DNA of 25,788 nt from positions 1-25,788 of IMG/VR virus record IMGVR_UViG_3300025806_000197, one strand, 5' to 3'. This DNA comes from a virus. Below, one piece after another: positions 7,462-25,788 of the stretch (within the stretch, counting starts at the first letter, position 1; each line of letters starts with the position of its first letter). Both the position numbers and the translations under genes were made by a program. Under the pieces are notes generated by a model. The model did not search any database. It saw only the letters and a program-made list of their open reading frames with translations, and was not told the origin of the DNA.

Positions 7462-10400
7462 ATGCCGCTATCAAAACGTAATTTCCAAAAGGCTAAGATG
7501 AACAAGGATGCCGACGAGCGTTTGATTCCTCAAGGTCATTACAGAGATGCATTAAACATACAGGTTTCCACGTCTGACGGTTCTAACGCTGGATCAGCCC
7601 AAACCCTTCTCGGTAACACCGCGTCTAGCACAATGCTAGCGGGTCACAGCATAAACGTGCCTACCACAGCCACTTGTGTTGGTGCAGTTGCCGCTAAAGA
7701 TTCAGACAAGATATACTACTTCGTTTCAGCTGGAGACGAGGCCGCTTCATCTAACCACAGGCCTGTAAGAAAAGACTATATATTAGAGTACGATTCTGTA
7801 TTAGACAAGCACAGGTATGTGTTTGTTGATATATACAGATCGACGATCACCACTGTTGCCACGACGTCTAGCACATCGGCTTTTGTTAGTTTAGCGGCAT
7901 CAAGCGCGACCAACGACACAGGCATTAGATTAGACATGATTGTGACTGGCACGGTAAACGGCGTTACCTACACTCGCGCAGACGCACTTAAGGTTTCTGA
8001 AATAAAGTACAACGCTAACTTAGGAAGCCCTAAGTGGGATGTTTACTTAACACACCCTAATGGTGTCGCTTTTTCCTCGTCGTCAGGCGTGGTATCGCTA
8101 AGCTTCCACGCAGACAGGGTTTTGAATTTTTCAAAAAACATTATTATAACAGGCATAAACGTTTTAGACGAATTTATATACTGGACAGACAACTCTTCTG
8201 AGCCTAAGAAAATAAGTATACCTAGATCTATAGCTGGAACGGGCGGTACTGATTACTTGTACGGCGCTGGAAACGGAGGTTGGTCAAACGCGTCGACTGT
8301 TAACACAAGCAGCGTGTTTGAAGGGGACTTCGACCACTTCCACACTAGGTTAGTCAAAGATAAAGCTTTTTACAACGTAGACTCTAATAGGTATAGCGTT
8401 GTTACTAACGCTAGCGGAAATAAAGCAGTGTACGTAAACGAAAGCCACATAACTGTGATTAAAAAAGCTCCAACACAACCCTTGGAGATAGAGATGTTTA
8501 GGGGGCCTAGCTCTAGAGTTACTGACGCAGGTGTTGAAAACAAGCTTTCAACGACATGCTCTTTTGACGTGGGGGGCTTAGAAGTTGGTAATACTATTGA
8601 TGTGGATTTTGACGAGGCGGTAGATTTTAGAGTAGGAGATGTTCTTTTGTTAGCAATGCAGACCAGTGCAGCTGTTAACTCTGACACTCTCACGTTTGAG
8701 CCCTCGGACTACGACATAAGGGCTTTAGTTACAGCGTCTGATGTCCTTGACGCAAACGCGTTGTCGTCTACGGGTTTTGTGCTTAAAATCAGAACTATAT
8801 CGAATAGTATATCAGACTTAGAATCTCAAGATCTCGAAGACTTAGGTTTTGTTGCTAGACTTGAGGTTTCAGAAACTTTGTTTAACTTAAAGTTTCCTAG
8901 GTTTTCTTATAGATACAAGTACCAAGACGGGGAATACTCTACCTTCGCACCGTGGTCTCAAGTTGCTTTTCTGCCAGATCATTACGATTTCAAGCCAGCA
9001 AAAGGATTTAATCTTGGTATGGCTAATCAAGTAAAAAGCGTTAAGCTAAAAGGTTACCACGCTAGCGAGGCTGCAATACCGCAAGACATTGTTGAAATAG
9101 ACCTGCTATATAAAGAAACAAACAACCCTACGGTATACACTGTAAAAACACTAAGAAAGTCTGACGGCTTCGACAACGGTATTTGGCCAGACCTAAGCTC
9201 TAATGCAAATGCTAGAGGTGAATTTGTTTTAGACACGGATCTTATACACGCTGTCGTGCCTTCGAACCAGCTGATTAGACCTTGGGACAATGTCCCTAGA
9301 AAAGCGCTAGCTCAAGAAATAAGCGCTAATAGAGTAGTATACGGGAACTACCTACAAAACTACACTATATTAAAAGATCCGGTTATAGATGTAGGTTTAC
9401 ATGTTGATGGCTTGCACTATGCAGGTATTGGTTGGGGAGGTGGTTTTGCTCTTCCTTCTGTTAAAACATCTAGAGAATATCAAGTAGGCGTTGTGTTTAG
9501 CGATGAGTACGGTAGGGAGACGCCAGTGCTAAGCTCTAAAAAATCATCAATATCCGTACCTAAAGACGCTTCTAAAAGAAGAAACAGAATAACGGCTTCT
9601 TTAAGTGAAGATACTGTTGTGCCAGACTGGGCTAAGCACTATTCTTTCTACATAAAAGAAACCTCTACAGGGTATCACAACATGACCATGGACAGATGGT
9701 ATCATGCTGAAGATGGCAATATATGGCTTTCGTTTCCTTCATCAGAGCGAAACAAAGTAGATCTTGACACTTTTTTAAGCCTTAAGAAAGCACACAACTC
9801 AGACCAAGTTGTAGAAGATAAAACTAAATATAAGGTTCTTGCTTTAGAGAATGAAGCTCCACCTGACGTAAAATCCTTTAATAAGTCTTTAGGGTCTTTA
9901 TTTTGTGGCGAAGCTGGCTCTGTAATTGGCATAAACGGTAATGGGTATCCTTTGCAAGACACTACGTTTATAACAGTGGACGGTGGATCATTTGATAGTG
10001 CATTCGGTAGCGATTTCGCAACCCCAAACGGGTCGAACATGTTCATCACGTTCACTGGTCAAGGAAAAGCCTCTAAACCATATGGCGTGGCTAGCATCAC
10101 CCAACAAGAAGCTAATAAAAAAATTCAAATTATAGGTAGGTTTGGCGGTGACGTTGCGTTTGCTTCTTCAGATGACACTATTGACAATACTATTAACGAT
10201 CTTTCGTTTCTCTTATTCGAGCGCGAGCCAAGAGACACCCCAGAGTTTGATGGAAGGTTTTTTGTAAAAATAAATAGAGACGAGTCTATAGATCAGCAAA
10301 TTATTCAATACGAAAGCTCTGACTACACTGTGGAGACATCTTGGCCTTTAAGGTATATAAACAGCAACGCTTGGTTTGATCACCCTTCAGGTTGGAGTGT

Positions 10401-13197
10401 TGGAAACAGCCATACGCAGGCTATGATGAGCCCGGATATTGACAACACCAGTCAAAACAGATCTAAACACCCTACAGCGCAAGACTTAAACACTGCTCAA
10501 AGATACTGGGGTGGTAACTCTGCTGTAAATGGACAAAACCAGTCATCCAATGGTAATATAACCGCAGATTATTACAATCAACATCCGGATATTTTAACAA
10601 ACGGTACTGACCCAAGCGTGAAGTTTTGGGAGAACATGGCAGATCACCACCATTTTTTCATTGATGCTTGTACTGCCTACTCCTGGAGTGGAAGAGGTAA
10701 CGCCAACGGCGATATGAGACCTGGAAATATCCTTTCGCAAAACGCTACTGTCATGGCAAGCGGAGGTAATGTCTACACATACACAGACTTCTATGATACC
10801 GGCGGCGTTGCAGAAGAACAGTCGGATGGTGCAGTTGATGGTATCACTGGTAACATGAACCCCATTCCATCGCAGCGGTTAGCGCACCCAAGTAGAGGTA
10901 TATGGGGCTGGGATGATGGGCAAAGGTACATGGATATATCGTGGACAGGTATGTCAAAAGGGTACGATGGCAACAACTTTAATTCCGGTAAACCTTTCCC
11001 AGCTAAACTCTCCCAAATTCCATCCACAGATGGTGGCGGGATATATGCTGAAGCCAATAGTTTTATAAAAAAACTTGTAGCTCCTGGCACAAAGTTTAGG
11101 TTCCAAAGAGATCCAGACGGCATTGTTTATACCGTACAGGCTTATAATTGGTACCAAGGATACAATAACCCATACTATTATAATCCTGATATCGGTGGCA
11201 ATCCCGCTAGTGACGGCGCGTGGGGTATTAGAAACTATAGAACCGGCTCTCCCCATCGTGATAAAAAACAGTATAGAGGCGACAATTTAAGGCAACGATG
11301 GACTATTCAAGTCGATCCTCCCATAGGCGATGGTGGCACTTACAAGCCAACGAGGGGTAATGACAGCGTTGACGCTCTTAGGCACGACGGCTCTGACTCA
11401 GACGTTATAGAGATACTGGGTCCGGTAGAAGGTATTGGCAATGATGATAGTTTTTCTGAAAACCCGGCAATTTGGGAAACAGAACCTAAAGAGTCTGTGG
11501 ACTTAGATATATACTATCAAGCTACTGGGCTCATTCCTGTCGAGCTTAATGAAAAAACAAATGAGGAGTACCTACCTATAGGAACAAAGTTCAAGAGCCA
11601 TGAAGGCGATCCTTCTTCACCAACAATTCACACTATAACTAACTGGACTGGGCCGCAGACCTTTACTTTTACCCCAGCGATAAGCCCACAAGAAGAAGAT
11701 TCAAATCCAATTACAGCGAACTCTACAGTTGTCTTTGATAAAAGAAACTCATATTCATTGACAGCTGTGGTTAAATCAGCAGTTGGTGCTGGTGCAAGTT
11801 CTATGACGCTTTGGGGAGGACCAGAAACAACACTTGCTAGCAGGAAGCTCTACTCTCAAAAGCACCGCTTAGACTGGAGCAACTGCTACAGCTTTGGAAA
11901 CGGCTTGGAATCTGATACCGTAAGAGACTCCTTTAACGGCGCTAAGCTTGATAACGGCGTAAAAGCGTCAACGGTGCTAGGCACGCAGTCAAGAGAAGAG
12001 CGCCGTAAAAACGGCATGATCTGGTCTGGTATATACAACTCTAGCGCAGGTGTTAATAATACAAATCAATTTATAGCCGGAGAGAATATAACCAAAGACG
12101 TAAACCCTAGCCACGGCAGTATACAAAGGCTGTTCAATAGAGGTACTACCCTCGCTATATTCTGCGAAGACAAGGTTTTACAAGCAGTAACAAATAAAGA
12201 CGCGCTATACAGTGCCGACGGTAAACCTCAACTAGTAGCTAGCAATGCTGTTGTAGGCGATGTCACCGCTTATCAGGGTGACTGGGGTATATCTAAAAAC
12301 CCTGAATCTTTAGCTGTTACGCCTGGTAACTTGTATTTCACTGACATAATAAGAGGGCAGGTTTTAGCTCTGTCTAACGAAGGTGTAAGATCTATATCAA
12401 ACGCTGGTATGAAGGACTACTTCGCTGATCTTTCTAAGTCTTACGTGTGGAGATCTTTAGGCACATACGATGAGAGAAAAAATGAGTACAACGTTACTAT
12501 ATCTAAAAAATACGCTAGCTATCAAATCCAGCCACACGAGCAAACCACTATATCGTATAGCGAAATAGCTAAAGGATGGGCAAGCTTCAAGTCTTTCAAC
12601 CCTCAAAACGGCGTTAGTTTAAACAACGATTACTTTACTTTTTCCAGCGGTCGTATCTGGAAGCATCACACTAACGAAACTAGAAATAAATTTTACGGCA
12701 ACCAATACACGTCAAACGTTACGCTAGTGTTTAATGACGCTGTAGAAGCTGCTAAGAGCATAGGCTCTATCAACTACGAGGGCACTCAAGCTAGAATTAC
12801 TAATTTTGATCTTGTGTCAACACAAAGACTTACCGGTGATATCGACACGGGTGACGGGTTAGCAACCGCGGCAAACATAGCGGATGGAGAGTACTTTAAC
12901 ATAGAGGATGATGTACCAGGGTGGTACGTGGAGTCTATAGTTACAAACCTGCAGACGTGCGGCGAGTTAGAGTTTAAAGACAAGGAAGGTAAGTGGTTTG
13001 GTATCCCTAGCGGAGAAGCTACTTCCTTGTCAAATATAGACGGTAAAGAGTTTTCCGTGCAGGGACTTGGAACAGCAACGGTCGACCGTGATGACACTCA
13101 AAAAGAAACTTTCAACTTGACGGTTTCTAATAATACGTCTACAACGTACGAAGGCTCCGACGGCGGGGGTGGTGCGTGGGACTCAACGGCAGATTAA
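7462..13197 (+). CDS. Giant tail protein, muzzle / stabilisation type
   Basis: This 1911-aa protein carries an N-terminal signature (residues ~10-50: KAKMNKDADERLIPQGHYRD, then ALNIQVSTSDGSNAGSAQ). I associate this with the large tail-tip proteins of crAss-like and many uncultured marine podoviruses, called muzzle or stabilisation proteins. The C-terminal third has a second signature: YDERKNEYNVTI (about 1669-1680), then SEIAKGWASFKSFN (1700-1713), WKHHTNETRNKFYGNQY (1733-1749) and NYEGTQARI (1771-1779). The middle is beta-rich. Residues ~970-1310 are rich in Gly, Asn, Trp, Tyr and His (HHH at 1062-1064) and look like an exposed inserted domain. The last 15 residues include a GGGG linker. It probably forms the tail tube tip or muzzle through which DNA and internal proteins leave. 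It is co-transcribed with the connector gene 3 nt upstream and the 666-aa gene 9 nt downstream. Receptor binding is possible for the insertion but unproven. Confidence 0.75.
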   Translation: MPLSKRNFQKAKMNKDADERLIPQGHYRDALNIQVSTSDGSNAGSAQTLLGNTASSTMLAGHSINVPTTATCVGAVAAKDSDKIYYFVSAGDEAASSNHRPVRKDYILEYDSVLDKHRYVFVDIYRSTITTVATTSSTSAFVSLAASSATNDTGIRLDMIVTGTVNGVTYTRADALKVSEIKYNANLGSPKWDVYLTHPNGVAFSSSSGVVSLSFHADRVLNFSKNIIITGINVLDEFIYWTDNSSEPKKISIPRSIAGTGGTDYLYGAGNGGWSNASTVNTSSVFEGDFDHFHTRLVKDKAFYNVDSNRYSVVTNASGNKAVYVNESHITVIKKAPTQPLEIEMFRGPSSRVTDAGVENKLSTTCSFDVGGLEVGNTIDVDFDEAVDFRVGDVLLLAMQTSAAVNSDTLTFEPSDYDIRALVTASDVLDANALSSTGFVLKIRTISNSISDLESQDLEDLGFVARLEVSETLFNLKFPRFSYRYKYQDGEYSTFAPWSQVAFLPDHYDFKPAKGFNLGMANQVKSVKLKGYHASEAAIPQDIVEIDLLYKETNNPTVYTVKTLRKSDGFDNGIWPDLSSNANARGEFVLDTDLIHAVVPSNQLIRPWDNVPRKALAQEISANRVVYGNYLQNYTILKDPVIDVGLHVDGLHYAGIGWGGGFALPSVKTSREYQVGVVFSDEYGRETPVLSSKKSSISVPKDASKRRNRITASLSEDTVVPDWAKHYSFYIKETSTGYHNMTMDRWYHAEDGNIWLSFPSSERNKVDLDTFLSLKKAHNSDQVVEDKTKYKVLALENEAPPDVKSFNKSLGSLFCGEAGSVIGINGNGYPLQDTTFITVDGGSFDSAFGSDFATPNGSNMFITFTGQGKASKPYGVASITQQEANKKIQIIGRFGGDVAFASSDDTIDNTINDLSFLLFEREPRDTPEFDGRFFVKINRDESIDQQIIQYESSDYTVETSWPLRYINSNAWFDHPSGWSVGNSHTQAMMSPDIDNTSQNRSKHPTAQDLNTAQRYWGGNSAVNGQNQSSNGNITADYYNQHPDILTNGTDPSVKFWENMADHHHFFIDACTAYSWSGRGNANGDMRPGNILSQNATVMASGGNVYTYTDFYDTGGVAEEQSDGAVDGITGNMNPIPSQRLAHPSRGIWGWDDGQRYMDISWTGMSKGYDGNNFNSGKPFPAKLSQIPSTDGGGIYAEANSFIKKLVAPGTKFRFQRDPDGIVYTVQAYNWYQGYNNPYYYNPDIGGNPASDGAWGIRNYRTGSPHRDKKQYRGDNLRQRWTIQVDPPIGDGGTYKPTRGNDSVDALRHDGSDSDVIEILGPVEGIGNDDSFSENPAIWETEPKESVDLDIYYQATGLIPVELNEKTNEEYLPIGTKFKSHEGDPSSPTIHTITNWTGPQTFTFTPAISPQEEDSNPITANSTVVFDKRNSYSLTAVVKSAVGAGASSMTLWGGPETTLASRKLYSQKHRLDWSNCYSFGNGLESDTVRDSFNGAKLDNGVKASTVLGTQSREERRKNGMIWSGIYNSSAGVNNTNQFIAGENITKDVNPSHGSIQRLFNRGTTLAIFCEDKVLQAVTNKDALYSADGKPQLVASNAVVGDVTAYQGDWGISKNPESLAVTPGNLYFTDIIRGQVLALSNEGVRSISNAGMKDYFADLSKSYVWRSLGTYDERKNEYNVTISKKYASYQIQPHEQTTISYSEIAKGWASFKSFNPQNGVSLNNDYFTFSSGRIWKHHTNETRNKFYGNQYTSNVTLVFNDAVEAAKSIGSINYEGTQARITNFDLVSTQRLTGDIDTGDGLATAANIADGEYFNIEDDVPGWYVESIVTNLQTCGELEFKDKEGKWFGIPSGEATSLSNIDGKEFSVQGLGTATVDRDDTQKETFNLTVSNNTSTTYEGSDGGGGAWDSTAD

Positions 13198-17017: not shown

Positions 17018-18151
17018 ATGGCAACTTTAGATTACAAATTATCAGCCGACACCCTTAACAGGGTCGGGCGTGCCAAGTCTAGTGGTTACGCTGCTAGTGG
17101 CATTGGTGACACCAGTGGGCTTGAAGACAGCCTGGAAACTATAGTAGAAGAAGGCGAGAAGGAAAAGGAAGAGGATAAGATCAAAGAGCAGGAAGCGGGC
17201 TTAGCTGGCCTTTCCATGGAACAAGGCTTTAACGAGCAAGCTGAAAGAGGAAGCTGGGGCGACACACCTGAGCTGTATGAGCAGATGCGAGTGTACATGC
17301 AGACGGACAAAGAAGCTCACCTTGCAGCTTTAGACAGTGAGGACCCTGTTGAAGCACAGAGGATACTTCAAGATCAAAATAGAAAAAGCGTAGAGATGAA
17401 CAAGTGGTCGTCCCTAATGAAGACTGCTGGAGAAATACATAGTGAAACCGGTTGGGGAGCGCTTATAACAGATGATCCAGACGCCTCGTACAAGCTTGGC
17501 CAGCTGACATCTATGGCTAACGGTGAAATGAAATTTGACCCCCAAGGCAAAATGTATATTGAAATCCCATCGCAAAAAGCAGGTGGTGAGCCAATACAGG
17601 TTTATCGAGAAGAGATTGACCAATTAGTGGCGCAAGGTATCAAACCCAAAGAGCGCCAAGCTGCTTTTTTAAACTCAACCGTAAACATCAAGGAGCAAGG
17701 CTTAAATGGAACCGTATGGGACGAGTCAACGCAGAATGTTATCATGACAAACAACAAAAACATGATAGACAAGAAAAACGCTTACTCCGTTGCGATGGAC
17801 GAATGGACTGGTACTAAGTTTATTGACGATTTAAAAGAATTTACCCTAGGAGGAGTGGAGCTAGATAACGGTGACCCTTTGATGGACCAAAACGGAGACG
17901 GAGTTGACTTTAAAGAAGCAAGGGAATGGATAGCCAGTAAGATTCAAGAAGCTAAACAAGGCGCTATAACAAACGAAGACTTTGATGTTCTTCAAGATAT
18001 AATGGCTCGTTGGATGATGGGTAAACAAAAAACTAACTTTGACGACGGCGCAAGACAACGCGCGACGACCCAAGTGGATAAAATGAGGGGGATGGGTGGT
18101 CAGACAAACATTGCCGAAGCCAATAGGCTCGAGGGATTGATTCAACCGTAA
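17018..18151 (+). CDS. Probable internal virion protein, function unknown
   Basis: This 377-aa soluble protein is mostly helical and acidic. The N-terminal 60 residues are flexible and end in a KEKEEDKIKEQE charged stretch. The middle has D-P-x-x-A-x-x-I-L-x-D-Q repeats of helical type (DPVEAQRILQDQN at about 109-121). Around residues 290-301 lies MDQNGDGVDFKEAREW, a loop with D290, N292, D294, G295 and D297 that resembles an EF-hand or dockerin calcium loop. The expected acidic residue at loop position 12 is missing, with E300 one position earlier, so calcium binding is only possible. I do not recognise the family by name. Its place between a hydrophobic ejection-type protein and the giant protein suggests an internal virion component like T7 gp15, although it is shorter. 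The start ATG has no Shine-Dalgarno sequence. The next gene starts 5 nt after its stop codon. Confidence 0.5.
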   Translation: MATLDYKLSADTLNRVGRAKSSGYAASGIGDTSGLEDSLETIVEEGEKEKEEDKIKEQEAGLAGLSMEQGFNEQAERGSWGDTPELYEQMRVYMQTDKEAHLAALDSEDPVEAQRILQDQNRKSVEMNKWSSLMKTAGEIHSETGWGALITDDPDASYKLGQLTSMANGEMKFDPQGKMYIEIPSQKAGGEPIQVYREEIDQLVAQGIKPKERQAAFLNSTVNIKEQGLNGTVWDESTQNVIMTNNKNMIDKKNAYSVAMDEWTGTKFIDDLKEFTLGGVELDNGDPLMDQNGDGVDFKEAREWIASKIQEAKQGAITNEDFDVLQDIMARWMMGKQKTNFDDGARQRATTQVDKMRGMGGQTNIAEANRLEGLIQP

Positions 18152-18156
18152 AATAC

Positions 18157-21100
18157 ATGAACGAAGAGCAAATAAAAGCCAGGGCCTCAGAGATGATCGC
18201 CGCTGGCGACCGTGCTGGGCGAGATAAAAGCGAGGTCGACGCAGAGGTTAGAGCATTTGTTCTTGCTGCTAGAGCTAAGCGAGATGAGGAGCCGACTGAA
18301 CCACCTGCTATAGCTAACGCTTACGCCGATCACAGCTGGTGGCGCGAAAACGAAGAGGTTTTTGGCAGTAGAGATGGTTACGTTAAAAACGAAGAAGGTT
18401 TTTGGAGCGACTCACAAGGTAGAGAGTTAGAGGGACAGCGAAGCGTAATGCTTGGTTTTGGAGGAGCGCCATCTCCAGATGCAGACGTGCTATCAAAACT
18501 AAGAGATGAAGATGCCAGCGAGTTCATAGTTGCCCAAAAACCTGTGTATAAGGAGTATTCCACAGAGTCCGACTCAACTCTAGATCAAGCGTTAGAAGAT
18601 ACCTCTGTTACAGAAGAGCAAGAGGCTGACAATGAGCTTATCGCAAGAAAAGATTACAACAACCGTAGCCAAACTGCTCGAACCGTAGCAGAGTTTGACT
18701 CAGGATTTGGGTCAATCACAAGGGACGAGGAGGAGCAAAAAGAGAAAGAGTTAAGAGATGCCTATGCTGAAGAGGGGAGACTCGCGTATGTGGCTAAGTA
18801 CAAAAGCGAGTACGATGATGTCACTGGAGGATGGGCGAGGGCGAGAGAGAAGTACGTCGACGAGCGTATTAAAGAAGACGATATAGACTCGTATTCAGAG
18901 GTAATAGCTCGGAATGACGCTTATAACAATGCTCCTGAGTTTCAGCAGGCAAAAATTAACACCGCAAAAGCTAGGTTTGCTGAAGAAAATGGATACACTC
19001 ACGCTCAGCAATTAGAGCTCAATAACACAGTTATAGACGTAAACGACCGTGAGTCTTGGCCAGAAGGTTTTGAAGACACCTACAACAATGTGCGGGTCGA
19101 CGACCCGGATCTTAGAAAGGCCGTTATAGGTAACGCATCTAGAGCAGGCGATGCTGAGTCTGTTCAAAAAAACGTAGCAGAGTTTGTTGAGAACTTACCG
19201 TCAGACTGGGGCATGTCAGAATACACCGAAGTGAGTTTTGACACTGGAGGAATTGAAGCCATTGCCGGCTTACAAGCTGGTAATTTGTTTTCCAAAAAAG
19301 ATGCTCAAAGAGCAATTGAAGACACAGCTGATGGTAGATTAGAGCTGTTAAAAGAGAACGACGCTGTTCTAGCTAAAAAACTCAACGTAACAGCGATTGC
19401 TTTAGAGAGCAATAGTAAGGCGCTAGACAGCGCGATGAAAGAATTAAACGACTTAGGTGACGTTGAAGCAAAGATCAAGGCTATTGCTGAAGGTAGTTAC
19501 ACTACGCAAGACCAGGTTGACAAAGCGAAGTCTGAGATACAGGCTTTAGTTTCGCAGTATAAAGAGAAATCTAGCGAAGCAAACAAATACGCAAACAACC
19601 ACAAAGCGCTTGTTACAGCATACGGCACCTTAGGTGACGAGTTTGAGACCTTGCAGTTAGAAGAGGACGAACTAAGTGTGTTTACTGATTACATAGGTGA
19701 TAACCACCAGTTAGGCACTCAAATGGCTTGGTCGCTTGCTAGTGCCGCTGTAGACCTTGGACAAGGATTAGCCGATGCGGTTTACATGATAAATCCTTTA
19801 GGCGCGCTTGCAGATTCTGTTATCTCTAGTCTAGAAGACAAGGGATACGACAATTTAGATACAATTAAATCAGCCGTGGACTTGGCAAGGTTTACGACAG
19901 GTCCGGTTAGTTGGTACTCTGGCGATACAAGGCAGAGCATAAAAGCGAGTGTTGACGGATGGCAAGCTAACGTAGCCAGTAACATCCAAGCTCCTATGGC
20001 TTACGGAGACATTGACAGTTTTAGTGATCTTGGAGAATACGCAGGCGTCATGATTGCTGGTCAGATACCAAACCTAGCTTTAATGTACGCTTCTGGTGGG
20101 CTTTCTTTGTATATGATGGGCGCGAGTTCGGCTGGAGCTTCTTACTCTGCTATGGAGGATAAAAGAAATGCTTTTGAAGAAAGCGGAGGTCTGTACGGGC
20201 AAGATTATAATTTTGCACAAATGCTTACGGTATCTACTCTTAAAGGCACGGCTGAGGCTTTGTCTGAAAAAGTAACATTAGGACAACTTAAGAAGACTGG
20301 TTTTAACTTAAGTAAAAGCTCTTTAAGAACAGGCGGAGTACAAGGTTACGCTAAGTACCTTAGACAAAATGTTTTTGATAGCCAGTTAATGCGTAACAAC
20401 TTACTGGATCTCACTGAAGAAGGCGGTTCTGAGGTTCTGGCAACGCTAGCTGGAAACGGTTTAGATATTATGTCAGGAAGTAAAGACGTAGGGCTTTTTG
20501 ATGATTTAGCTGAGTCTTTTGTTAGTGGTGCTATGATTAGCTCCACCATAAAGTCTCCTGTTTTATTTAAACATGCTATAGCTCCTTTCCAGTCAAACAA
20601 CGGTAGGCAAGTCCTTAACGAAAACTTTGCTAGAATAAACCAGATAGAGGACTTGATTGCTAGCGGTGGATTAAGCGTTGATGCTCGGGTAGAGCTTGAA
20701 ACTGAAGTTGCAGAACTGGTGCAACAAAACAAGAAAGCAATAGAGATAGACGTCCAGCGTGTAGATGCGTTAGAGGATAATGATAAGTCTGCTTTGCTAG
20801 AGATAGAAAGAGCTAATAACGGGTTGTCAAGAAAGTACAATGCTTTAAGCAGTGAAGACAGCGGTTTAACGGAGGAGCAGAGAGAAAGAGAAGTCCAAAA
20901 ACTTGAAGCGAAGTTTGCGCAGAACATCGCAAAAAAGCAAGGTATATTACAGAAATACCCAAGCGAGGAAAACACTAAGAAGTACAAGCAATCTGTAGAG
21001 GTTCTAAGAAACAGATCTAAAGAGGTTGAAAAAGCCGGAGGAAAAAAGGTCAACGTAGTAGAAGGTAGCTCTAAGGCTTTCGTGGAAGAGGTGGCCAGGA

Positions 21101-24100
21101 TTAATACACCTGAAATTAGAAAGAAACTAGAGGGCATCGTACAAGACCCTAATGCCTCAGCTGGGGATAAAGCCGCTGCTCAACAGGCTTTGGACCAAGG
21201 GGCTGAATATTCTGTATCGTTAAATAAAGCGAAAAGAGAAGGGGTAGGGGAAAACTACGGTCTTATGACGCCTAACTTTAACGAAAATGGGGAGCTTGAT
21301 TCGTACACTATCTTTATCAATAAAGAAACATCACTTAAAGACGGTATGATAACGACTGGAGCTCACGAGTTCATGCACGTTGCGTTGTATAATACCGTCA
21401 AGCGAGACCCTGAGGTTAGAGCCGCGCTAGGCACGAAGGTTGATGAAATACTTGGTATCCAAGATGACGGATCTTACGCTGGAGGGAAAGGCGTTAACAT
21501 AACTAAAAAAGGGTCCGCGATACTTAAAGCGCGGTTGAAAGAATATAAGAAAGGAGAGCAAGGAGAAGAGACCTTAGCTATTGTTTCAGAGTTAATGGCT
21601 AACGGTGATATAACTATAGATGACTCTGCTATGGGTAGGCTCAAGGATTTTTTCAGAAGAATCTTTCAACTCAAAATAAACCGTGATATAAAGTTCGATA
21701 CTAGCAACGATGTTAGGAATTTTATGAAGGACTTTCATAGATCGCTTAACAAAGGTAAGAAGGATGCTAGAATCTCTCGACTTACAGCTGAAGGCGCTAG
21801 TGGAGGGCTAATTCAAGAGGCTCAGGAAAAAAGAGACGCCGGTGTTGCTAAAGCCGTTGAGGAAAAACAGCGGGCTCAGTTTTCAAGAGCAGTGGATTCA
21901 AACATGCGGGCAAACCCTGACATGAAAAGCGAGATTGACACTTTTGTTCAAGACGAAGCCGGTGATAGAAAGTTTGAGAATAACGAAGAATTTAAGGTTG
22001 CGCCAGAATATTACGAGGCTTACTTACACCTGGTTGAAGGTAGAACTCTAGACGGTCTTATCCAACAAGGTATGACTGACCTTGGTTTACCACCTGACGC
22101 GCTACGTGATTTTACAGTAAAGGTTAAGAGTAATATAGGCGAACGGTTTTTAAAAAACTACGACGTAGCCAAAAACGATAGTTTGTTTGGTTGGTTAACC
22201 GGTGTATCTGGAGGCGCAGGACGTTCTATTATCTACAGAGCCAAAGGCGACGTCATGAACAAGTACAAGGAGGACAACCAACTTGCTACTGTTTCTATTG
22301 ACGCAAGTATGGATTCTGGAGGAGGAGATTCTTTTGCTGCTCAGATAGAAGCTGAAGTAGACGAAAGCACAACAAGTTTTGAAGAACAGGATCTGTCTGT
22401 AGGGTCTAGGAACAGGCCTAGAGTGAGAAGAAGAAAGAGACAGGGTGTTAAGGCAGCTGAGTCTTTAAGTATGTCTCCTAAGGTCATCTCTGGCATTGAG
22501 ACCGTTGTGAACGACGCTAAAGTTAACCTTGAGGGACTAACATATAAAGGCGTTAAGAAGCTAACGTCAACCCCTGGCTCTTCGCTTTCAGGCGTGTTAG
22601 ACGCTGTAGCGACTGAGTTTGGTATAGAGGCAAAAAGAATTGTTAAGCCAGCTGACTTAAATGGAGCGCAAAGAAAAGCTGCTCAAGAGTATATAAAGAA
22701 AAACTCAAAAGCACTTTTAGAGTTACTACCAGAAGGTGAGACTAGAAGTGGTCAGGCCACGGGCGTCGCAAAAAGCAAGCTAAGCGAGTTGTACGAGAAA
22801 GGTGGTAGAGTAAAAGCTGCTGAAGGAGCTGGAACACAAGGTAAGTTTTCTCAAACTAAAAGAACTGACGTTACAACAGAAGAGTTTAACGCTTTGTTTG
22901 GTATCAAACCAGACGGAACGCTTGACGGTAACAAGAAGTTTGACGGGGCGATTAAAGCTATGGTTAATCAAACAGCTGTGATAGTTGCTAACCAAGCTAT
23001 TAGAGAAAACGCTTTAGAAAACGGCACGTTCGCCGAAGCAACGGTTGCTTTGTTGGGTGATGGAAGATCAGAGGTTATGTTTAGCAAAAAGGTCTCTGAT
23101 AAAAACAAAGATCAATTTACCGAACAGTTTGACTCTTTGGCAAAACAAGTTGCGGCTTCTAATCCAGCTGATTTAAAGTCCGTGGAAATAGCCGTTGCAA
23201 GCGTTTTAACAGATGAGCTAGGGTTTTCTAATAGAGAAAGAAAAGCTATAGCGAAGAACATATGGGAACAAACTAAAGACTACAACAGAATTGTCTCTGC
23301 TCACAAAGCTGGAGCGAAAGTAGTGGGTGTACCGAAGTCTCTTGATGAGTTTTTAAATGACAACTTTGCTCAAGAAAGCTTAGACCCAGGTATTATAGGC
23401 GCTTTAAGAGATGTTTTACCTAAAAACTCTAAAGGAAAAACAATCCCAATTGGAGCTCACTTTTTAGAAGCAGACAGGGTTCAAAGAAACAGAGCCGCTG
23501 TAGTAGGTATAGGCAACAAGATGGTTGAGGAAGGTTCTTCCTTACAAGAAGCGGCAGAGATTATGATTGCTTACTTTTCTGGTATGTACTCAAGAGCTGC
23601 TAAAATGGCTGACGGTAGGTTTGTTGTCGACGACAACGTGGTTATCGACAACCCTGCGTGGGACCAGTTAGTAAAAGACTCTATTAACAAAGACGGAAAG
23701 CCACCAAAAAATAGAAAACAAATATTTTCTAATCAAGCTGACTTTATAAATACGCTTAGATCTATACCTGGACTAGAGTCGTTGAAGAAAAGCGGTAAAG
23801 GATACTCTTTAAATGGGGTCAAGCTAGAAACAACTTTGCTGGGAGAAAGCTCTAAGGCTTTTTTGAAAGGCGTCGAAACAAACCCTTTACGTGAGTTTGA
23901 ATCAAGAAAAGCTCAGGCAGATAAAGCCAGAAAAGCAGTTAAGATAGCTCTTGATTTTTACTGGGAAAGAATAAACTCGAAGGAAGGAGGTTATGACTAC
24001 GCTGATTTTGCTATGATTGTCACGAGCATGGGTTCAGGCATGCAGGCTCCTATTAGAAGAGCGGCGCCAGCAGAGTACATTGCAGAGGGAACCGAACAGT

Positions 24101-25788
24101 TGATTGCAGACGCAGCAAAAAAAGGTAAGTCAATAGGAAAAGTTACAGAGTATGAACACATGGTGCCTCAAGAAGAGGTCGCTATAAAGATATTACACTC
24201 TTACCTTAATGAAGGAGAGCTGAACAACAATGTTTGGGAGAACTATAAGGTGCAGGTCATACCTAAATCAATGGATAGGGTGATTGTAGAGGCTGGGTAC
24301 CAACGAAGATCACCGGCAGATGGAGGCTCTAGAAACTATAACATGAAAACCTTTAGAGATCCAAGACTAAGGGCTATTAGAAGTATAGATCCTGCTAAAA
24401 AAGGCACTCCAGCAGAGTTTGTTGGAAAAAACTTTGTTGAAGCCGCTAAAGCTTTAGACTCTAAAACAGACGTGAAAGCCTCGGATATTCAGGCTTTAAA
24501 CGAAGCCTACAGGGGTATTAGTTTTTCTAAAAAACCTAAAGGAGCAAGCGTCTGGGATTTCGACGATACGTTGGCTAGAACCAAGTCAGACGTATTGTTT
24601 ACTAGTCCTGATGGCGTTAAAGGAAAGCTCAGTGCAGAAGAATTTGCGACACAAGGCAGTGAACTTCTAGCTGATGGTTATGAGTTTGATTTCTCTGAGT
24701 TTAATAAAGTTACTGAAGGCAAGCCAGGACCACTACTTAACAAAGCTCTTGAAAGAGCTAAGAAGTTTGGGACAAAAGATCAGTTTATACTTACTGCTAG
24801 AGCACCTCAAGCACAGCAGGCTATATACGAGTTTCTAAAAGGTGTTGGTCTTAACATACCTATGGAGAACATCAAAGGTCTAGGTAACTCAACGGGCCAA
24901 GCTAAAGCCAGTTGGATCGCTGAGAACTTAATAGCAAATGGGTATAATGATCTTTACTTTGCTGACGACGCACTACAAAACGTTGATGCTGTTAAAGACA
25001 TGTTTAACCGTTTCGACGTTAAAGGTGTGGTGCAGTTAGCTAAAGTCCAGTTTAGCAAGAAAGCACCAGTGGTGATGGACGGTATTATTGACGAAGGCGC
25101 TGCAGACCTTAATAAAGAGTTTAACATAACGCTTGAGCAAACCAAAGGCGTTAAAGCTGAAAAAACTTTCTCTCCTGCGAAAGCAAGACAAAGAGGCAAG
25201 GACAAGGGTAAGTACAAGTTCTTTATACCGCCTTCAGCGGATGACTTCGCTGGTTTAATGTATAGTTTTTTAGGTAAAGGTAAGCAAGGGGAAAAGCACC
25301 ATGCTTGGTTTAAAGAGCATTTGTTCGATCCTTACTCAAAAGGCATTAGGCACTTGAACGCTGTTCAAACAGTCGTCGCGAGCGATATGCGAGCTCTTAA
25401 GAAGGCTATGCCTGGCGTTAAAAACCTACTTAAGAAAACAATTCCAGGAACTGAATACACCAACGAGCACGCTGTCAGGGTTTACAACTGGGTTAAAGCA
25501 GGGCTTACTGTACCCGGTTTATCACAGGCTGACACTGACACGCTAGTTAAAAAAGTAGAGAACAACGCTGATCTTAAGCAATTTGCTGAAACAGTCTCTA
25601 GTATAGCTCAAATGCCTGGAGGGCTTCAACAAGCTGGTAACGACTGGTTGGCCGGTAATATTACTACAGATCTAAAGGATGCCCTAGACATTGCAAGAGG
25701 GACATACCTGGACCAGTGGAAGAATAATGTTAAAGTCATATTCAACGACGCTAACATGAACAAGATAGAGGCCGTCTATGGCTCTAAC
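18157..25788 (+). CDS. Giant polyvalent virion protein, 3'-partial
   Basis: I followed this frame codon by codon to the window edge: 2544 codons without a stop, so the protein is larger still. N-terminal region: charged helices to ~500. Hydrophobic segments lie at ~523-559 and ~629-665 (MIAGQIPNLALMYASGG and following), suited to membrane contact. A coiled coil spans ~829-948. A metallopeptidase-type site, HEFMH (H1070, E1071, H1074), has E1137, E1138 or E1145 as candidate third ligand. An acidic stretch then a basic patch, RNRPRVRRRKR, ends at 1428. EHMVP lies at 2000-2004. A HAD phosphatase domain (~2129-2290) has DFDDT (D2134, D2136), T2213, K2250 and D2270-D2271. A further conserved region includes KFFIPPSADDF (2354-2364) and LGKGKQG. 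Short FS[KRQ] motifs recur at borders (F378, F1242, F1564, F1642, F2123, F2299). I recall such proteins from marine phages. It is probably an internal virion protein ejected into the host, possibly processed. Overall function unknown. Confidence 0.8.
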   Translation, partial: MNEEQIKARASEMIAAGDRAGRDKSEVDAEVRAFVLAARAKRDEEPTEPPAIANAYADHSWWRENEEVFGSRDGYVKNEEGFWSDSQGRELEGQRSVMLGFGGAPSPDADVLSKLRDEDASEFIVAQKPVYKEYSTESDSTLDQALEDTSVTEEQEADNELIARKDYNNRSQTARTVAEFDSGFGSITRDEEEQKEKELRDAYAEEGRLAYVAKYKSEYDDVTGGWARAREKYVDERIKEDDIDSYSEVIARNDAYNNAPEFQQAKINTAKARFAEENGYTHAQQLELNNTVIDVNDRESWPEGFEDTYNNVRVDDPDLRKAVIGNASRAGDAESVQKNVAEFVENLPSDWGMSEYTEVSFDTGGIEAIAGLQAGNLFSKKDAQRAIEDTADGRLELLKENDAVLAKKLNVTAIALESNSKALDSAMKELNDLGDVEAKIKAIAEGSYTTQDQVDKAKSEIQALVSQYKEKSSEANKYANNHKALVTAYGTLGDEFETLQLEEDELSVFTDYIGDNHQLGTQMAWSLASAAVDLGQGLADAVYMINPLGALADSVISSLEDKGYDNLDTIKSAVDLARFTTGPVSWYSGDTRQSIKASVDGWQANVASNIQAPMAYGDIDSFSDLGEYAGVMIAGQIPNLALMYASGGLSLYMMGASSAGASYSAMEDKRNAFEESGGLYGQDYNFAQMLTVSTLKGTAEALSEKVTLGQLKKTGFNLSKSSLRTGGVQGYAKYLRQNVFDSQLMRNNLLDLTEEGGSEVLATLAGNGLDIMSGSKDVGLFDDLAESFVSGAMISSTIKSPVLFKHAIAPFQSNNGRQVLNENFARINQIEDLIASGGLSVDARVELETEVAELVQQNKKAIEIDVQRVDALEDNDKSALLEIERANNGLSRKYNALSSEDSGLTEEQREREVQKLEAKFAQNIAKKQGILQKYPSEENTKKYKQSVEVLRNRSKEVEKAGGKKVNVVEGSSKAFVEEVARINTPEIRKKLEGIVQDPNASAGDKAAAQQALDQGAEYSVSLNKAKREGVGENYGLMTPNFNENGELDSYTIFINKETSLKDGMITTGAHEFMHVALYNTVKRDPEVRAALGTKVDEILGIQDDGSYAGGKGVNITKKGSAILKARLKEYKKGEQGEETLAIVSELMANGDITIDDSAMGRLKDFFRRIFQLKINRDIKFDTSNDVRNFMKDFHRSLNKGKKDARISRLTAEGASGGLIQEAQEKRDAGVAKAVEEKQRAQFSRAVDSNMRANPDMKSEIDTFVQDEAGDRKFENNEEFKVAPEYYEAYLHLVEGRTLDGLIQQGMTDLGLPPDALRDFTVKVKSNIGERFLKNYDVAKNDSLFGWLTGVSGGAGRSIIYRAKGDVMNKYKEDNQLATVSIDASMDSGGGDSFAAQIEAEVDESTTSFEEQDLSVGSRNRPRVRRRKRQGVKAAESLSMSPKVISGIETVVNDAKVNLEGLTYKGVKKLTSTPGSSLSGVLDAVATEFGIEAKRIVKPADLNGAQRKAAQEYIKKNSKALLELLPEGETRSGQATGVAKSKLSELYEKGGRVKAAEGAGTQGKFSQTKRTDVTTEEFNALFGIKPDGTLDGNKKFDGAIKAMVNQTAVIVANQAIRENALENGTFAEATVALLGDGRSEVMFSKKVSDKNKDQFTEQFDSLAKQVAASNPADLKSVEIAVASVLTDELGFSNRERKAIAKNIWEQTKDYNRIVSAHKAGAKVVGVPKSLDEFLNDNFAQESLDPGIIGALRDVLPKNSKGKTIPIGAHFLEADRVQRNRAAVVGIGNKMVEEGSSLQEAAEIMIAYFSGMYSRAAKMADGRFVVDDNVVIDNPAWDQLVKDSINKDGKPPKNRKQIFSNQADFINTLRSIPGLESLKKSGKGYSLNGVKLETTLLGESSKAFLKGVETNPLREFESRKAQADKARKAVKIALDFYWERINSKEGGYDYADFAMIVTSMGSGMQAPIRRAAPAEYIAEGTEQLIADAAKKGKSIGKVTEYEHMVPQEEVAIKILHSYLNEGELNNNVWENYKVQVIPKSMDRVIVEAGYQRRSPADGGSRNYNMKTFRDPRLRAIRSIDPAKKGTPAEFVGKNFVEAAKALDSKTDVKASDIQALNEAYRGISFSKKPKGASVWDFDDTLARTKSDVLFTSPDGVKGKLSAEEFATQGSELLADGYEFDFSEFNKVTEGKPGPLLNKALERAKKFGTKDQFILTARAPQAQQAIYEFLKGVGLNIPMENIKGLGNSTGQAKASWIAENLIANGYNDLYFADDALQNVDAVKDMFNRFDVKGVVQLAKVQFSKKAPVVMDGIIDEGAADLNKEFNITLEQTKGVKAEKTFSPAKARQRGKDKGKYKFFIPPSADDFAGLMYSFLGKGKQGEKHHAWFKEHLFDPYSKGIRHLNAVQTVVASDMRALKKAMPGVKNLLKKTIPGTEYTNEHAVRVYNWVKAGLTVPGLSQADTDTLVKKVENNADLKQFAETVSSIAQMPGGLQQAGNDWLAGNITTDLKDALDIARGTYLDQWKNNVKVIFNDANMNKIEAVYGSN

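Follow-up and report, generated by a model that had tools for sequence, protein, structure and literature searches.

The stretch of DNA analysed here (hereafter the window) comprises 25,788 nucleotides of IMG/VR virus record IMGVR_UViG_3300025806_000197. It ends within a single large open reading frame on the plus strand (18157..25788), which has an ATG start, encodes 2544 aa of a giant multi-domain protein in the window and is open at its 3' end; a complete relative of this protein has 3310 aa. There is no obvious Shine-Dalgarno sequence 5' of the ORF (window 18100..18160), as is common in Bacteroidetes. The portal protein of the window shares 41-51% identity with portals from Flavobacterium phages, Maribacter phages and an unclassified podovirus, and Cellulophaga phages match as well; the window thus probably stems from a marine podovirus of Bacteroidetes with kinship to the crassviruses. 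A virion protein of 1911 aa (window 7462..13197) gave a match to the C-terminal domain of the crassvirus muzzle protein that was sub-threshold, lying below the curated cut-off; the portal and this muzzle-like protein thus bear some resemblance to those of the crassvirus group. The position of the giant gene after the portal, capsid and tail genes, together with distant structural proteins of Cellulophaga and Tenacibaculum phages, suggests that its product is packaged in the virion.

Profile searches of the giant protein and three relatives against Pfam, PHROGs and NCBIfam revealed no informative domain, and a PDB sequence search gave no match. Nor did the window protein match any of the described polyvalent domains (LPD, PBECR, ArdC and others), and scans of its relatives gave no relevant match. 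A candidate zincin-like metallopeptidase domain lies at about aa 1030-1200 (21244..21756, +; borders approximate). Sequence and alignment place its HEFMH active-site motif at aa 1070-1074 (21364..21378, +), and E1138 (21568..21570, +) is a candidate third zinc ligand. H1070, E1071, H1074 and E1138 are all invariant in 38 aligned homologues, and HExxH is present in 126 of the 130 long family members. In the structure model, the domain shows the order strand-strand-HExxH-helix at moderate confidence; a Foldseek search with it returned weak sigma-factor-like and unrelated matches, none of them significant, and it is the conserved residues that point to a zincin fold.

Further modules follow. A conserved helical module (aa 1250-1640; 21904..23076, +) showed only a weak resemblance to sigma factors (Foldseek E 0.7 or worse), and a central module (aa 1646-2115; 23092..24501, +) is well folded in the model and differs among relatives. 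Next comes a HAD-like phosphatase domain (aa 2126-2296; 24532..25044, +) with the motifs DFDDT, LTAR and FADDA. Its residues D35, D37, T39, T114, K151, D171 and D172 (numbering of alignment A1) are invariant and supply the DxDxT motif, the Thr of motif II, the Lys and the acidic motif IV of the Rossmann-like HAD superfamily. HAD structures ranked among the top Foldseek matches of the domain, although no match had an E-value under 0.03. Sequence comparison puts the start of a C-terminal module, conserved across the family, at 25108..25788 (+). As one ORF joins a HAD domain, an HExxH metallopeptidase and two or more other modules, the architecture is of the polyvalent type. In the relatives L101_5459, L105_5684, L107_5525, L111_5564, L100_5090, L067_3494 and L127_2361, the HAD domain has a long stretch of sequence between DxD and DFSEF (ETSLxxALxRNxxRKER) that looks like a nested, inserted domain.

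The family was sampled in four IMG/VR scans, which yielded about 180 loci; with the HAD plus C-terminal part as query, relatives were found encoded on 343 IMG/VR stretches. From the loci 185 family ORFs were extracted, 134 of which were left after removal of near-duplicates. No cultured family member was found in the collection searched, and a search of bacterial genomes found no relative of the giant protein.

A short motif at the module borders

The tetrapeptide FSKK occurs in the giant protein at aa 378, 1642, 2123 and 2299, with FSRA at 1242 and FSQT at 1564, exactly where an earlier, sequence-only reading of this DNA had placed them. Four copies of FSKK compare with 0.05 expected from composition, and none of 2000 shuffles reached three. 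About 4% of shuffles hold some tetrapeptide at least four times, so that the FSKK count alone is suggestive, not conclusive; what sets FSKK apart is the lower frequency of its residues.

Comparison with homologues identifies four of these positions as genuine border sites, at each of which aligned homologues keep [FYM]S. Site S1 (FSRA, aa 1242; 21880..21891, +) comes after the metallopeptidase domain, and in this interval [FYM]S[KRQE] was found in 33 of 61 relatives against 9.5 expected. Site S3 (FSKK, aa 1642; 23080..23091, +) lies in a low-pLDDT gap and within a conserved context, G[KR]S..MFSK. Site S4 (FSKK, aa 2123; 24523..24534, +) marks the left border of the HAD domain, and [FY]S[KR] occurs within 70 residues before this domain in 31 of 60 relatives (2.7 expected). 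At the right HAD border, the place of site S5 (FSKK, aa 2299; 25051..25062, +) is occupied by [FY]S in 87 family members, 68 of which have K or R in third position. The preferred form across sites is phi-x-F-S-[KR]-x, usually with a hydrophobic residue two positions before the F.

The structure models agree with this placement for most of the sites. AlphaFold2 applied to aa 1630-2420 with 46 sequences gave a mean pLDDT of 82.6, and the segments below 50 were 1630-1643, which holds S3, 1720-1722, 2104-2125, which holds S4, and 2297-2316, which holds S5; the HAD domain sits between the last two. A second model, of aa 1000-1700 (mean pLDDT 73.8), again left S3 in a gap and put S1 at the start of a predicted helix. 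S3, S4 and S5 fall in low-pLDDT segments and so withstand the refuting condition that the earlier reading had set, namely motifs inside folded domains; S1 is less clear-cut. The earlier claim that F2123 and F2299 flank a HAD domain holds, the model placing that domain at aa 2126-2296 (model residues 497-667). Its broader proposal, that the motif marks domain borders and so should lie outside folded parts, is well supported for 1642, 2123 and 2299; 1564, in a strand, does not fit, and 378 and 1564 were dropped. The motif also behaves as that reading had asked of homologues, in that it is retained while the linker before the HAD domain varies fivefold, S4 lying 10 to 50 residues from the HAD aspartates.

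The FSKK at aa 378 (19288..19299, +) we judge to be coincidental: FS is not conserved there, and homologues have FLKS, FTKT, FTKG, FSRG or FTAS. Likewise, FSQT at aa 1564 (22846..22857, +) was not accepted as a motif site; it falls in a predicted beta strand, and homologues mostly have KAQ, LAT, FAQ, FTQ or LAV within a conserved context.

Across the family ORFs, FSK, FSR, FSE and FSD are over-represented 2.3 to 3 times, and the permuted controls FKS, KSF and SFK are not. Some of the surplus of FSE and FSD can be traced to a DFS[ED]F motif that is constant within the HAD domain and to invariant positions in the C-terminal part; later motif tests were designed to avoid both. Other ORFs of the same loci showed no enrichment (5 occurrences against 3.2 expected); the enrichment is restricted to the giant protein. 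The ends of local homology between relatives cluster at the motif, with 808 of 4918 falling within 10 residues of it as compared to 259 +- 31 when motif positions were rotated.

Phage-specific versions of the motif

We regard it as decisive that each protein has its own version of the motif, repeated at its borders. The window protein uses FSKK; others carry four copies of FSET (L030_3716), FSRD at more than one border (L056_3722), three copies of FSRK (L140_1025), FSER (L145_1172) or [FYR]S[QE]D (L138_1385). Non-homologous borders within one phage match as FSER/FSER, FSRE/FSRE, FSLS/FSLS or YSQD/FSQD. S3 and S5 lie about 650 aa apart in unrelated sequence, and their residues 3-4 are identical in 10 of 18 proteins of less than 50% identity, against 0.9 +- 0.9 after permutation (p=0.0002). 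Residues 3-4 also agree between S4 and S5 (9 of 40 against 2.3, p=0.0003) and between S1 and S5 (5 of 47 against 1.6, p=0.01). When S5 tetrapeptides were permuted among 61 proteins below 50% identity, recurrence of a protein's own S5 tetrapeptide ahead of its HAD region was again well above expectation (23 times as against 5.3 +- 2.5, p=0.0002). In the same 61 proteins, upstream recurrence was not significant for the last three residues of S5 without F/Y or for its last dipeptide alone.

The matching of variants does not stem from shared ancestry, since a tree of 84 C-terminal modules requires no fewer than 50 changes of the S5 dipeptide. Among pairs that are phylogenetically independent and differ at S5 (K/R versus E/Q), the upstream sites shifted alike in about 5 of 7 and in the opposite direction in none (median p=0.06). 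The evolutionary evidence is very strong, and we consider the repeated motif very probably a real recognition element.

The metallopeptidase as candidate enzyme, and the alternatives

Partial Mantel tests showed that similarity of the S5 variant follows similarity of the HExxH domain (r=0.19, p=0.002) and does not track the adjacent HAD, the N-terminal or the C-terminal parts (p>0.5). A 13-window scan gave its highest correlation at the HExxH core, with r=0.21, and with r=0.165 (p=0.003) when a less redundant set was used. With all windows as covariates, the HExxH signal became marginal (p=0.06; 0.027 for the less redundant set), and one C-terminal window was also significant in this fully partialled test. 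We regard the correlation between enzyme and motif as suggestive: significant, and modest in size.

Since the border motif is repeated within each phage and its version follows the built-in protease, the protein most likely cuts itself. The motif, we think, is probably a cleavage signal for the metallopeptidase of the same chain. The giant protein would then be a virion-packaged polyprotein carrying its own zincin-like metallopeptidase, and F-S-[KR]-x, exposed in flexible linkers, would be the signal that this domain recognises. Cutting would release the helical module, the central module, the HAD phosphatase and the C-terminal module as separate proteins, and the enzyme and all its sites would change together between phages, as in viral polyproteins. 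We infer the metallopeptidase as the partner, cleavage as the outcome of recognition, the scissile bond and the timing, whether during assembly, in the capsid or after ejection. Phage tails are too narrow for folded domains, and giant proteins are injected through them. On balance we lean slightly towards a wider picture, in which a polyprotein driven by its metalloprotease is delivered by a large family of uncultured Bacteroidetes phages from the sea and cleaves itself at an F-S-x-x code particular to each phage, so that one ejected chain may give rise to several separate enzymes. The sequence-only reading had offered a proteolytic processing site as one role for the motif, and that idea gains indirect support from the concerted variants, from a metallopeptidase that tracks the variant and from the lack of enrichment in other ORFs. 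What speaks against self-cleavage is that the enzyme-motif correlation is small, that S1 stands at a helix start, that the zincin fold drew no significant Foldseek match, and that the metallopeptidase motif is altered in four members, to EExxH in L045_4130 and L035_4181 and to HDxxH in L070_4601 and L083_4274, with at least L045, L035 and L083 retaining the border motif. The alterations may reflect recent loss, an alternative chemistry or a domain that binds without cutting.

Retention of the motif in such members would also suit a docking peptide, by which a partner in the virion or the cell (portal, capsid, chaperone or the HExxH domain itself as a binder) grips every linker, for instance to order packaging or threading. 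Any shared partner would produce concerted change, and crAss001 cargo is thought to unfold partly during ejection (PMC10172136). However, binding alone would not require the catalytic residues to be conserved, as they are in nearly all members, and of the parts tested the HExxH core is the one that the variant follows best; we consider docking unlikely. The same members would be accommodated if the sites were cut by some other protease, encoded separately by the phage or by its host, and separate prohead proteases do serve the heads of P1 and SPN3US. Such an arrangement strikes us as quite improbable, as a host enzyme would not account for variants that differ from one phage to the next, as the S5 variant goes with the HExxH domain in the correlation tests, and as other ORFs lack the enrichment.

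Two further readings were considered. As a structural hinge or linker cap, F-S-K would merely end a domain and start a flexible linker, in keeping with the location of sites within predicted disordered linkers; it leaves unexplained why residues 3-4 are protein-specific at unrelated borders and change rapidly and jointly, and we rate it very improbable. The threading hinge suggested earlier has the same weakness, as it would not account for residues 3-4 that are shared at unrelated borders of one phage and differ in the next. Alternatively, the clustering of homology ends at motif sites might betray a seam in the DNA, a short repeat at which modules recombine. The four copies in the window, however, are encoded as TTTTCCAAAAAA, TTTAGCAAAAAG, TTTTCTAAAAAA and TTTAGCAAGAAA. 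In the family as a whole, 74 pairs of identical tetrapeptides include only 7 in which the 12-mer is the same. Serine codons differ between copies, including TCN versus AGY, and the codon box is no more alike than usage predicts. The likeness of the copies is at the protein level, not the DNA level, and on this codon comparison we rejected a recombination seam, which we find barely credible.

Known systems and the reach of the motif

Self-processing in the manner proposed here has a precedent in potyviruses, picornaviruses and retroviruses, whose own protease cuts the polyprotein at short inter-domain sites that coevolve with it. Those proteases are of the cysteine, serine or aspartic type, whereas here a metallopeptidase would act within a virion protein of a dsDNA phage, the cutting being proposed from sequence. 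Among phages, Iyer et al. (2017) predicted that polyvalent proteins are processed by their embedded peptidases, be it ahead of packaging, within the head or once injected (PMC5512222); the prediction was made on domain evidence, and the part of that paper drawn on here names no cleavage site. Our search of the open literature found no cleavage signal for polyvalent proteins or for crassvirus cargo. The window protein is like the polyvalent proteins of that account (PMC5512222) in its giant size, its phage origin and its combination of a zincin-like metallopeptidase with further domains, but differs in its protein-specific border motif and in matching no Pfam, PHROG or NCBIfam profile. A self-processing polyvalent protein would be of a known kind, and the new element a mapped, phage-specific signal that changes in concert.

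P1 DdrB, also polyvalent and with an HExxH domain, is reported to be processed to about 76 kDa before packaging (PMC5512222). As an independent test of a known cut it was not supportive, for it has no FS[KR] and a single FSET at 359, far from residue 690. The virion RNA polymerase of N4, gp50, is likewise giant, cysteine-free and ejected and has an HExxH domain, but in a C-terminal subdomain, and its two FS[KR] against 0.7 expected represent no clear enrichment. PMC5512222 has it packaged uncut, which counts against the self-cleavage proposed here. Crassvirus cargo (crAss001 gp45, gp46, gp47, gp49 and gp50) is virion cargo of related Bacteroidetes phages; FS[KR] enrichment was absent in gp45, gp46 and the N-terminal half of gp47, and the crAss001 structure paper (PMC10172136) uses none of the terms proteoly-, cleav- or protease. 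Clear enrichment was also absent from phi38:1 gp101, Gundel_1 Gundel1_74, Panino, MW202828 (a search for relatives of which found none), elemo gp18 and the P1 Dar proteins. The sequence-only reading had pointed to a similar F-S-[KR] habit in other phage polyvalent proteins, which the set tested does not bear out; because DdrB and N4 gp50 lack the pattern, the code is proposed for the family of the window protein and not for phages in general.

If the proposal is true, polyvalent proteins would have their first cleavage code, and RNA-virus polyproteins would have a counterpart among dsDNA phages. The motif names probable cut sites together with an enzyme in the same chain, which makes the predicted processing directly testable. 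It also shows where modules meet in hundreds of giant proteins that lack annotation, and the family offers a set of matched protease-site pairs.

Two minor observations concern giant proteins more widely. Elemo gp18 (L012 1852-12936) has five [FY]SE, at 46, 525, 1154, 1913 and 2544, which are roughly regular in spacing (1.6 expected) and are not kept in two relatives. Finally, the 2544 residues of the giant protein in the window include no cysteine. Many family members have none either, or else a cluster of six that forms a C...CxxH motif near the C-terminus (L001, L003); the observation was noted for the window, L196, L006, L007, L009 and L012. N4 gp50 and other flavophage giants are similarly free, or nearly free, of cysteine, a scarcity that could be linked to passage through the periplasm.
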